Below, piece after piece: positions 2,106 through 14,289 of a DNA stretch of 14,289 nt (within the stretch, counting starts at the first letter, position 1; each line of letters begins with the position of its first letter). Under the pieces are notes generated by a model. It did not search any database. It had not been told where the DNA came from and saw nothing but the letters and a program-made list of their open reading frames with translations. The position numbers and the translations under genes are program-made. The DNA is from Flavobacteriales bacterium. GTDB taxonomy: Bacteria; Bacteroidota; Bacteroidia; Flavobacteriales; BACL11. The stretch is taken from NCBI GenBank assembly GCA_002710495.1, contig PAKE01000052.1:1-14289 (forward strand), in the 5' to 3' direction.

Positions 2106-2819
2106 TTAGAAATGGGGTTCAAGACGACATGCAACGTTCAGTTGTGCAACCGACGCCGTGTTTGGCAGCGAAATAGTCGTTGAGATCAGTTCAGCAAGAT
2201 CAGACGCATCGATCATCGTTGCTGGGTCCTCGCCGAAGTCACTGGTCATGTCGGTAGCGATGAATCCAGGGCAGACCGACGTGACGCGAACGCCGTCATC
2301 CCAACCCGCCTGTTTCGTTGCCTCGGACAGGGCAAGAACTGCGTGCTTGGACATAGCGTATCCTGGAGCGAACTTCCCCATAACTCGTACGCCGGACAAC
2401 GAGGCGATGCTGACAACGCGCCCGCTGCCGTCGGCACGCAGGAGCGGTAGCGCAAGCTGGATCATCCGAAATGGTGCTTTGACATTGACCGACCACAACG
2501 CGTCGAGCCCGTCTTCGGTGAGGGCTTCGAGGCCGGCGGTATCAATGATCCCCGCATTGTTGACGAGACCAGACAGGGATCCGAACCGCTCGACCGTGGC
2601 ATTAAGCCACGTGGCATCGGTCCCTGGTTCGGCAGCGTCGTAGCGATGGCAGAGTACCCTGCTGTCTTCGCAGCCCTCCATAGAACGGCGTAATGCCTCG
2701 ACGTCGCGACCGCCGACGCTGACGTTGTACCCGTCGCTGTATAGCCGACGAGCTATAGCGTTACCGAGGCCTCGATTCGCTCCGCTAATCATGATTGTTC
2801 TATCGGTCGGATTAAGCAT
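2106..2819 (-). CDS. Short-chain dehydrogenase/reductase (SDR), classical type
   Basis: A 237-residue single-domain Rossmann oxidoreductase, the usual length for a classical SDR, likely cytosolic. The dinucleotide-binding glycine motif is SGANRGLG (residues 12-19). The NNAG motif is at 87-90 and the catalytic Tyr-Lys pair is YAMSK (Y154, K158). S140 in SIAS is the likely catalytic serine. PGFIATDM (184-191) is the loop after the active site. Arg38 at the end of the second strand, plus the N-R pair in the glycine loop, favour NADPH over NADH; this is inference. Its substrate cannot be told from the sequence. The gene converges on the rRNA operon and shares its terminator. The start codon has no clear Shine-Dalgarno but has a TAnnnT box 7 nt upstream, suggesting a leaderless mRNA. 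Confidence 0.93.
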   Translation of the reverse strand: MLNPTDRTIMISGANRGLGNAIARRLYSDGYNVSVGGRDVEALRRSMEGCEDSRVLCHRYDAAEPGTDATWLNATVERFGSLSGLVNNAGIIDTAGLEALTEDGLDALWSVNVKAPFRMIQLALPLLRADGSGRVVSIASLSGVRVMGKFAPGYAMSKHAVLALSEATKQAGWDDGVRVTSVCPGFIATDMTSDFGEDPATMIDASDLAELISTTISLPNTASVAQLNVACRLEPHF

Positions 2820-3180: not shown

Positions 3181-4026
3181 ATGCGCAAGAAACAGACGAC
3201 ATCGGTAAGACTCCCTGATGTGGTAGAGCGATCGCTCATCGAGACAGAACGTTTTGCGCAGCGCTACGCGATGTCCAGCGAAGCAAACCTCCGGGTGGTG
3301 GAGTTGGAAGCACTCGGCAGCGACTACCAAGCGACTGGGTATACGACACGCAAGCAGGCGGACGGCATCGGTCGGCTCCTTGCACTCGAGCCAGGCAAGG
3401 TGCTCGTTGACATCGGCGCAGGATCCGGGTGGCCAGGCCTCTATCTAGCAACCACGTTCGGCTGTTCGGTGATCAGCGTCGATCCGATCATGGAGGGTTG
3501 CAGTGCTGCATTTGACCGCATTGACAGCGATGGCCTCGTACCCAGAGCGCTAGCGTTGCTCGGAACCGGTGAAAAGCTCCCGATCCGGTCGGGCTCGATC
3601 GACGCGATCGTGCACGCCGATGTGATGTGTTGACTACGCAGAAAGCTCTCCGTGCTGAGAGCCTCGCATCGCGTGCTTCGTTCATATGGTCGTGCGGCTT
3701 TTTACACGATCGAAGTGCAGCGGGGGCTCAGCGCAGCGCAACGCCGACGCGCGAGCTTGATTGGACCGCCCGGCGTGGCGGTCCGAACAACGTATCCGGG
3801 CCTGCTCCGCTCAGCGGGTTTTACCGAGATTGACGTGGTTGATGTGACCTCTGCGTACCTTGCTACCCAGCGCCGCTGGCTAGCTGCCACACTCCAGCAC
3901 GAAGAGGATTTACGCTCGGCTCTGGGCGACGACGCTGTCTACGAAGGAATCAAGCGTCGACGTCGCACCGTCGACGCAATTGAGGAAGGCTTGCTGTTGC
4001 GGACCCTGTATTCGGCCACTCGCTGA
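3181..4026 (+). CDS. Class I SAM-dependent methyltransferase interrupted by an in-frame TGA (nonsense or candidate selenocysteine)
   Basis: One reading frame of 281 codons, broken only by a TGA at codon 151 (3631-3633). Before it, residues 74-84 (VLVDIGAGSGW) are SAM-binding motif I, Asp101 follows strand 2, and EKLPIRSGSIDAIVHADV (131-148) is the motif II region. After the TGA the same frame continues with LRRKLSVLRASHRVL, then a GGR-like turn (SYGR), GFTEID, and EEGLLLRTLYSA near the C-terminus, as expected for one intact protein. The first half alone (150 aa) would lack the later strands. The start ATG is the first codon after an in-frame stop; no strong Shine-Dalgarno is seen. In relatives I recall a Cys-Cys pair at C150-TGA151, so TGA replaces a Cys. 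The methyl acceptor is unknown. This could be a pseudogene, a sequencing error or a selenoprotein. Confidence 0.8.
3645..3662 (+). promoter_or_regulatory. Hairpin just after the in-frame TGA, bSECIS-like
   Basis: GCTCTC (3645-3650) and GAGAGC (3657-3662) form a perfect 6-bp stem around the loop CGTGCT. The loop begins 17 nt after the TGA (3631-3633) and its second base is G. These features match, as I recall them, the loose rules for bacterial SECIS elements (small apical loop with an early G, roughly 16-37 nt after UGA). A chance hairpin inside coding sequence is also possible. Confidence 0.3.
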
Positions 4027-12102: not shown

Positions 12103-12298
12103 GTGAGGATGAGATCGGAGCCTGTTGACGAAATGATGGGGCATACAGAGTGATCTTTCAAGGGGGCAGCCAGCAGCCTTGGGTATGTCGAACATCCTGG
12201 CTTATTTGCGATGGATCTCTGAAGGTGTAGTGCCACGCGCTTTGCCATTAACGATGACGCGACCGGCAGTCGACCTTCAACGAGACCAGACTGGTGAC

Positions 12299-12822
12299 AT
12301 GGTTTTCGAGAGTCCGGCCTATCGGGTCAAGGAACGGATAAATGAAATCGAACTCCGCCGCTACGAGCCCTACGTTGTGGCTGAAACGCTCGTGGAGGGA
12401 CCGCTTGAGCGGGCGGGCAACGGCGGGTTCCGCTTGCTTGCGGGTTACATCTTCGGCGGGAACAAGACCACTTATGGTGATAGTAAAAAAATTGCGATGA
12501 CCACGCCGGTCGCTCAAGACCGGGTCGGTGACCAATACCGAGTGCGTTTCATGATGCCGACGCAGTACACCGTCGATTCCCTTCTGATACCGAACGACTC
12601 ACGAGTCACGATCAAGGAGATCGGACCCAGTGTTTGGCCGCGATCCGCTATCGCGGGCGTTGGACACGCAATGGATACGAGCGGCATTGCCGTACGCTGA
12701 TGAACGCCACTAGCCAAGCTGGTCGTACTGTGCTTGGGGAGCCAGTCTGGGCTCGCTATGACCCGCCTTGGACACCTTGGTTCCTGCGGCGCAAGGAGAT
12801 CCTAGTTGGGCTTGACGATTAG
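12299..12822 (+). pseudogene. SOUL family heme-binding protein, split by a one-base frameshift
   Basis: The SOUL domain begins at VFESPAYRVKER and continues with ELRRYEPYVVAET, EGPLERAGNGGFRLLAGYI and KKIAMTTPVAQ, all typical of the family. In this frame the protein then ends with an unrelated tail at 12700. The expected continuation, AAIRYRGRW, GEPVWARYDPPWTPWFLRRKEI, is in the next frame from about 12634 to the TAG at 12820-12822. Restoring one T in the TTT run at 12633-12635 would join the two, giving PSV-LAAIRYRG. Intact relatives are about 170-210 residues and may bind heme. The 5' end is uncertain: the frame is open to TTG at 12179, but the sequence before 12299 looks non-coding and no ribosome binding site is clear. 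A base-call error and a true mutation cannot be told apart here. Confidence 0.85.
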
Positions 12823-13658: not shown

Positions 13659-14289
13659 ATGACAACCCTCCGTGCTCGTACTTTGCTCCCTGTTCTTGCG
13701 GGGCTGACGCTGATTGCTACAGCTTGTGGCTCTGATAGTGCCGCATCGACTACCGACTCAGAATCTAATGCTGCTCCGGCAACTGGTGCTCCGGCAACTG
13801 ATAATTCACAATCCGTAGGCGAAATTGCGACCGTTGTCGTGACGACGAACATCCTGGGTGATGTGGTCAGCGAGCTCCTCGATGGCCAAGCTGAGGTCAT
13901 CACGATCATGCCCGTGGGCGCTGATCCGCACGAGTTCCAGGCTTCGGCACAAGAAATCAACCAGATGCTCAATGCAGATGCTTTGATTGTCAACGGGGCA
14001 AACTTCGAAGAAGGCCTCATCGACGTGATCGAGTCCGCCGAGGAAGACGGGGTGCCCATTTACGAGGCCATTTCGACTGTTAAGACGTTGGAATTTGGCG
14101 AAGGTGATGGGGGCCACGCCGACCATGGCGATGAGGATCATGACGATCATGGCGATGAGGATCATGGCGATGAGGACCATGGCGATGAGGATCATGGCGA
14201 TGAGGATCATGACGATCATGGCGATGAGGATCATGACGATCATGGCGATGAGGACCACGACGACCATGGCGATGAGGACCACGACGACC
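13659..14289 (+). CDS. Zinc/manganese-type ABC transporter substrate-binding lipoprotein (ZnuA-like), 3' end outside the window
   Basis: 210 codons are visible. Residues 1-22 are a signal peptide and Cys23 (ATAC) the lipidation site, so the protein sits on the outer face of the membrane. A Ser/Ala/Thr-rich linker runs to about 55. The cluster A-1 binding fold follows: VVTTNILGDVVSEL (60-73), then MPVGADPHEFQASAQEI (84-100), in which His91 is the first metal ligand, and ALIVNGANFEEGL (108-120). From 153 the chain is a His/Asp/Glu/Gly repeat, the loop found in zinc-type members and thought to collect metal. The rest of the fold, including later ligands, lies past the edge. Permease and ATPase genes would be expected downstream. 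Zinc is likelier than manganese because of the His loop. Confidence 0.93.
   Translation, partial: MTTLRARTLLPVLAGLTLIATACGSDSAASTTDSESNAAPATGAPATDNSQSVGEIATVVVTTNILGDVVSELLDGQAEVITIMPVGADPHEFQASAQEINQMLNADALIVNGANFEEGLIDVIESAEEDGVPIYEAISTVKTLEFGEGDGGHADHGDEDHDDHGDEDHGDEDHGDEDHGDEDHDDHGDEDHDDHGDEDHDDHGDEDHDD
14113..14289 (+). repeat. Tandem repeats encoding a His/Asp-rich metal loop
   Basis: Two codon blocks alternate: a 15-bp unit encoding HGDED and a 24-bp unit encoding HDDHGDED. The visible order is HADHGDED, HDDHGDED, HGDED three times, HDDHGDED three times, then HDD at the window edge. There are 14 His in 58 residues. Near identity at the DNA level (CATGGCGATGAGGA core) suggests recent expansion by slippage or recombination. 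The array may extend beyond the window. Confidence 0.9.

Follow-up and report, generated by a model that had tools for sequence, protein, structure and literature searches.

An acidimicrobial methyltransferase gene with an in-frame TGA very likely encodes a Cys-Sec selenoprotein

Organization of the locus

The window (i.e., the whole stretch of 14,289 nucleotides that was analysed) contains a methyltransferase gene interrupted by a single TGA. The features considered here are the following:

2106 to 2819, minus strand: divergent short-chain dehydrogenase, syntenic with Ilumatobacter MAG G781 (locus L253) and outside the proposed mechanism
3181 to 4026, plus strand: gene of a class I SAM-dependent methyltransferase, very probably a selenoprotein, with terminal stop TGA at 4024-4026
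3631 to 3633, plus strand: in-frame TGA, putative Sec codon (TGA in 16 and Cys in 3 of 19 orthologues at this column)
3645 to 3662, plus strand: bacterial SECIS-like hairpin with a 6-bp stem and a 6-nt loop (CGUGCU), for which pairing among the TGA genes (97.9%), a peak of synonymous conservation and a covariance model match speak

As the initial annotation had stated, the frame 3181-4026 is open save for one TGA, situated at 3631-3633 and directly preceded by a Cys codon (TGT); no other stop occurs before the terminal one. The frame is open on both sides of this TGA and the downstream sequence is conserved among orthologues, which bears out the conserved flanks described earlier. The read-through protein scores 43.2 bits with Pfam Methyltransf_11 (PF08241; cut-off 21.2) in an alignment that spans the TGA, and its best NCBIfam match has E 3.5e-11 for the whole protein, an improvement on the E 5.5e-6 of the first piece alone; the second piece alone, following the TGA, has no NCBIfam match at E 0.001. 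Under automatic annotation such genes appear as two broken pieces. Counting from the ATG at 3181, the putative Sec is residue 151, and from the GTG at 3220 it is residue 138. The GTG may be the true start instead of the ATG; a start codon is situated exactly 137 codons 5' of the Sec column in 9 of the 19 orthologues, the window counted.

Origin of the contig

The window constitutes an entire contig (G000:C56) of a 1.57-Mb MAG with a rated completeness of 81.6%. Its GC content amounts to 56.3%, versus 30-34% in 12 other loci of the MAG and 30-32% in 7 further stretches, and because of this difference it is almost certainly a misbinned, rRNA-bearing contig. A partial 23S and a 5S gene are located on it; the best plasmid matches of the 23S region come from actinobacteria and Bacillus (around 75-78%), which by itself is indecisive on origin. 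Concerning the P450 gene of the window, genome_contigs (84,980 species) was scanned with a two-row alignment of the window P450 and a Nonomuraea P450, and of 248 relatives the best 80 were kept, the first two of which belong to Ilumatobacter MAGs (92% in G781, 91% in G782). In G781 (L253), the divergent dehydrogenase and the methyltransferase gene adjoin each other as in the window, with nucleotide identities of 79.9% and 76.0%, respectively. We conclude that the contig stems from Ilumatobacteraceae or close kin (Acidimicrobiia).

Searches among the taxa to which the MAG belongs yielded no orthologue of the methyltransferase in its genus (a match in 1 of 6 genomes, namely the window itself) or in its family (matches in 2 of 52 genomes, namely the window and one at 29% identity), and distant methyltransferases only in its class (395 genomes) and phylum (395 genomes). 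Two distant matches from the phylum sample (L058 in G655, L069 in G609) contain one TGA and two TAA in frame and, as far as seen, lie outside the family described here. When the window protein alone served as query, genome_contigs, viral_contigs and phages yielded no relative, and from plasmids came 8 records with 27-31% identity. The 11 viral stretches that matched the motif pattern proved to include no homologue, and a further candidate (L034) was discarded, its TGA being situated elsewhere.

Two further observations concern the remainder of the contig. The initial annotation had regarded another gene of the window as broken, and the SOUL haem-binding gene (12179-12703) does look so: it matches profile positions 2-110 of 173 only, it ends with TGATGA, and similar-looking sequence seems to continue in another frame, such that it is probably frameshifted. 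The stretch 13659-14288 is an open frame with a secreted-lipoprotein-like start, within whose HDDHGDED-like repeats the contig ends; the repeat may be the reason why the assembly stopped there.

Orthologues and the TGA column

Among the 49 genomes behind the 50 loci with P450 relatives (L104 left out), four contain an orthologue of the methyltransferase, at 74, 55, 51 and 44% identity (next match at E 3.2e-10), and all four possess TGA at exactly the codon of the window. None was found in G782, the second-closest genome by P450. A profile of these four proteins and that of the window, run against 395 genomes from the class of G781, added 14 orthologues with E values up to 6.5e-41; a fifteenth row repeated the gene of G781, and two loci were left out of the count, i.e., L238 (G850, E 2.1e-24, in two frames) and L223, which is the gene of L169. 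The lowest identity among the orthologues is 36%.

Aligning homologues at this codon had been proposed as a check, and the 18 other orthologues exhibit TGA in 15 cases and a Cys codon (TGC or TGT; L232, L235 and L236) in three, i.e., 16 TGA and 3 Cys with the window included, which is the alternation of Sec and Cys expected among homologues of a selenoprotein. Across the 19 aligned rows 10 columns are invariant, those of the Cys and the Sec among them. The motif VLCCL, which the initial annotation had given for homologues, is recovered in the three Cys forms as DLLCCL, DVLCCL and DVLCCL. These three cluster in the tree (100/99); its root is not fixed, so that the order of Sec and Cys is not readable from it.

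The SECIS-like hairpin

The previously noted hairpin with 6 bp and a 6-nt loop is exact: the stem strands GCTCTC (3645-3650) and GAGAGC (3657-3662) enclose the loop CGTGCT (3651-3656), starting 11 nt past the TGA. Taken alone, the respective 66-nt stretch of the window is within chance expectation (fold z 0.37; 122 of 200 shuffles equally or more stable), and therefore only the comparison with relatives can decide. A hairpin of 5-6 bp can be formed 11 nt downstream in all 16 TGA genes and is absent from all three Cys genes. Of the pair cells in the 16 TGA genes, 97.9% are pairing: in L225 one U-A pair is replaced by G-C with both sides changed, L231 and L233 possess U-G at this same pair, and L230 and L237 have lost the bottom pair alone. 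The covariation signal is weak (reached by 32 of 500 shuffles) because variation is very low, and in 4 of the 16 TGA genes (L225, L230, L233, L237) the minimum-energy fold of 50 nt is another structure.

Synonymous codon usage was compared among 15 TGA orthologues, the partial gene of L237 and the three Cys forms being left out. Codons +4 to +7 after the TGA are identical in all pairs with identical amino acids, whereas the 136 columns average 0.44, and the highest of 243 seven-codon windows starts with the codon that follows the TGA (0.91 versus a median of 0.41). A covariance model built from 14 relatives, with the window and L169 excluded from building, matches the window at 3631-3675 with E 4.1e-9 and leaves the three Cys loci unmatched even at E 10; such a model also perceives coding constraint, and therefore it is taken as supporting evidence only. 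Despite the weak covariation and the four differing folds, a SECIS-like hairpin is found close to the UGA and is absent from the Cys forms. As to a loss of TGA and hairpin in close relatives, named beforehand as evidence against selenocysteine, the TGA is kept in 15 of 18 other orthologues and the hairpin is formable in all 15.

Selenocysteine machinery and the reading of the TGA

Genes for selB and tRNA-Sec were searched in 46 of the 49 genomes with P450 relatives, a set consisting mainly of Acidimicrobiia and located outside the window's own host. A selB above cut-off was found in 31 and a tRNA-Sec in 33 of the 46, both including all four genomes with an orthologue, in which tRNA-Sec lies above the gathering score; the machinery is common in the set examined. 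In G781, the one genome in which selA was considered, selA (411.7 bits, cut-off 267.9) adjoins selB, and ARAGORN calls a tRNA-SeC with anticodon tca, whereas in G782 the selB match stays under the cut-off and a tRNA-Sec is missing at E 1e-8.

The MAG into which the contig was binned contains neither selA nor a selB above cut-off, none of its six weak tRNA-Sec matches exceeds the gathering score (they coincide with tRNA genes for Ser, Leu, Gly and Tyr), and tRNA-Sec is above cut-off in none of the 6 genomes of its genus. An absence of selB and selC, which had been set as counting against selenocysteine, is formally what the MAG exhibits; by GC content and by its kin, however, the contig does not belong to this MAG, and the missing genes say nothing because the MAG is not the host. 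This argument against Sec was accordingly dropped, the GC mismatch showing the contig to be foreign to the MAG.

The initial annotation had left the choice among nonsense, error and selenocysteine. From the comparison of sequences, the gene 3181-4026 very likely encodes a selenoprotein, namely a class I SAM-dependent methyltransferase with Sec at UGA 3631-3633, because actinobacterial relatives keep the same TGA together with the recoding hairpin. The UGA would be read as Sec by SelB and tRNA-Sec, with insertion directed by the hairpin at 3645-3662. A sequencing error or a decaying pseudogene, in which the TGA would be accidental nonsense, might be suspected from the equally broken look of the SOUL gene and from the lack of sel genes in the MAG holding the contig; yet the latter is not the contig's host, and the frame stays open and conserved past the TGA. 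Such an accident is highly improbable, because 15 of the 18 other orthologues have the TGA at one and the same codon, with the hairpin in each of them and in none of the Cys forms, and the shared TGA and hairpin in substance refute it. A genetic code in which this lineage assigns UGA to a standard amino acid would equally let the UGA be read within the frame, but it has next to no probability: TGA is the terminal stop in 14 of 19 orthologue genes, and therefore not reassigned throughout, it also ends 5 of the 9 window genes looked at (in accordance with the earlier statement on stops in the window), and all four orthologue genomes tested contain selB and tRNA-Sec.

Comparison with known selenoproteins

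Table 1 of a review from 2026, as far as its excerpted text goes, covers 119 selenoprotein families and subfamilies (PMC13188914). Its methyltransferases comprise ArsM (UxxG), MduS (CxxU, with two Sec) and other methyltransferase fusions, and an adjacent Cys-Sec pair (CU) is given there for HgcA, SaoL, SaoC, MbdU, KCU-star and others; a methyltransferase with the CU motif does not occur in these excerpts (PMC13188914). The window protein itself reaches no NCBIfam cut-off.

Among the known families, ArsM (NF008823) resembles the window protein in being a class I SAM methyltransferase with a single Sec, and ArsM-type TGA genes exist in the same lineage. Its Sec site, however, is UxxG, whereas in the window CU lies past the strand 127-133 and is followed by LRR; with 43 bits, the window protein stays under the cut-off of 263. 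MduS (NF045649) and the methyltransferase/UXPK-star family (NF047649) likewise bear Sec in a methyltransferase domain, but the excerpted table gives them two Sec and, as motif, CxxU or UxxG, in contrast to the one Sec and the CU of the window (PMC13188914). The latter reaches 26.1 against a cut-off of 460 for NF047649 and is unmatched by the MduS profile at E 1e-6, a profile that matches 5 of the 19 family members (best E 1.9e-8). The CU selenoproteins HgcA, SaoL, SaoC, MbdU and KCU-star share the adjacent pair; unlike the window protein, none of them is given as a SAM-dependent methyltransferase in the excerpts (PMC13188914).

In the open-access literature, to which the search was confined, no description of the family was found among the matches listed. 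A eukaryotic SAM-dependent methyltransferase selenoprotein is mentioned in excerpts of two papers (PMC2375036, PMC7435645). We rate the Cys-Sec methyltransferase as a new selenoprotein family with unusual Sec placement, with the eukaryotic protein outside this comparison.

Fold, active site and possible function

The AlphaFold2 model (19-row input, Sec modelled as Cys) exhibits a class I methyltransferase with a pLDDT of 91.4, in which Cys137-Sec138 is situated directly past strand 127-133. The PF08241 score, the predicted model and the Foldseek results agree that the protein belongs to the class I SAM-dependent methyltransferases; Foldseek ranks AtPMT2, AtPMT1, AtmM, TleD and RebM highest, and small-molecule methyltransferases of the PMT/RebM/MitM/AtmM kind constitute the nearest solved folds and profile matches. 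In the profile alignment, the pair stands opposite Ile-His in MitM, Leu-His in AtPMT1 and AtPMT2, and His140-His141 in RebM (numbers counted by hand on the alignment); the single-sequence alignment places the same His of MitM, AtPMT1 and AtPMT2 there, and Gln in 7v6h. The column occupied by Sec or Cys in the window family is thus a His column in MitM, RebM and AtPMT, with 7v6h as the difference.

Because Sec falls in this column, it probably lies at the reaction centre, as judged from alignments and the predicted model, and would follow the invariant Cys past the strand. The RebM His pair is presumably catalytic, a point on which nothing was found in the open-access literature, and the AtPMT His is what we take to be the counterpart of His132 in PfPMT. 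There, His132 and Tyr19 form the catalytic dyad, according to the excerpted text of PMC6705855. A Cys-Sec pair at the His column of a methyltransferase would offer a direct test of what selenium contributes to methyl transfer.

An undescribed family of Acidimicrobiia, in which Sec replaces the active-site His and acts as selenolate in methyl transfer or holds a metalloid, is a plausible reading that falls a little short of being probable. Tentatively, the most likely function would be methylation of a soft substrate, be it a metalloid, metal, thiol or selenol, that the Cys-Sec pair holds or activates. The role in arsenic, selenium or tellurium handling that the initial annotation had suggested stays hypothetical.

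Provided that the protein is a selenoprotein, the pair might instead be a redox switch controlling the methyltransferase, which we regard as rather unlikely. In favour of the switch, a selenenylsulfide can arise between neighbouring Cys and Sec residues. In the same direction, many selenoproteins are homologues of thiol oxidoreductases or bear redox motifs, and most are thought to be redox enzymes, according to the excerpted review; of the CU proteins given there, however, SaoL, HgcA, SaoC and MbdU are linked to mercury or metals by name or text (PMC13188914). Against the switch also stand the position of the pair in the active-site His column and the four neighbours at one locus, among which Pfam recognised no redox partner.

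Gene neighbourhood

No shared operon was detected beyond the dehydrogenase in the window and in G781, gene calls being rough in this GC-rich DNA. In one of the 19 loci (L256, genome G793), an ArsM-type TGA gene (L256:4414-5196) is located directly upstream of the CU gene and is itself preceded by the gene of an ArsR-rhodanese regulator; its best NCBIfam matches are ArsM, all under cut-off. Returning to a soft substrate for the Cys-Sec pair, a metalloid or thiol is merely the leading guess, because the ArsM-type neighbour occurs in 1 of 19 loci and no other neighbourhood is shared. Two genes lie on the opposite strand of L256, one for a rhodanese protein and one for an MFS transporter, and a PpoB2 gene is found farther along.

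A second TGA-bearing methyltransferase of the lineage (L256, L184, L186, L187) contains WTG-TGA-IAGG (UxxG) and is probably the known arsenite methyltransferase selenoprotein; L184, L186 and L187 were excluded from the CU family as being of this ArsM type. The sequence downstream of the TGA in these ArsM-type genes is different and unmatched by the covariance model. Further TGA-bearing side matches are found in L185 and G792.
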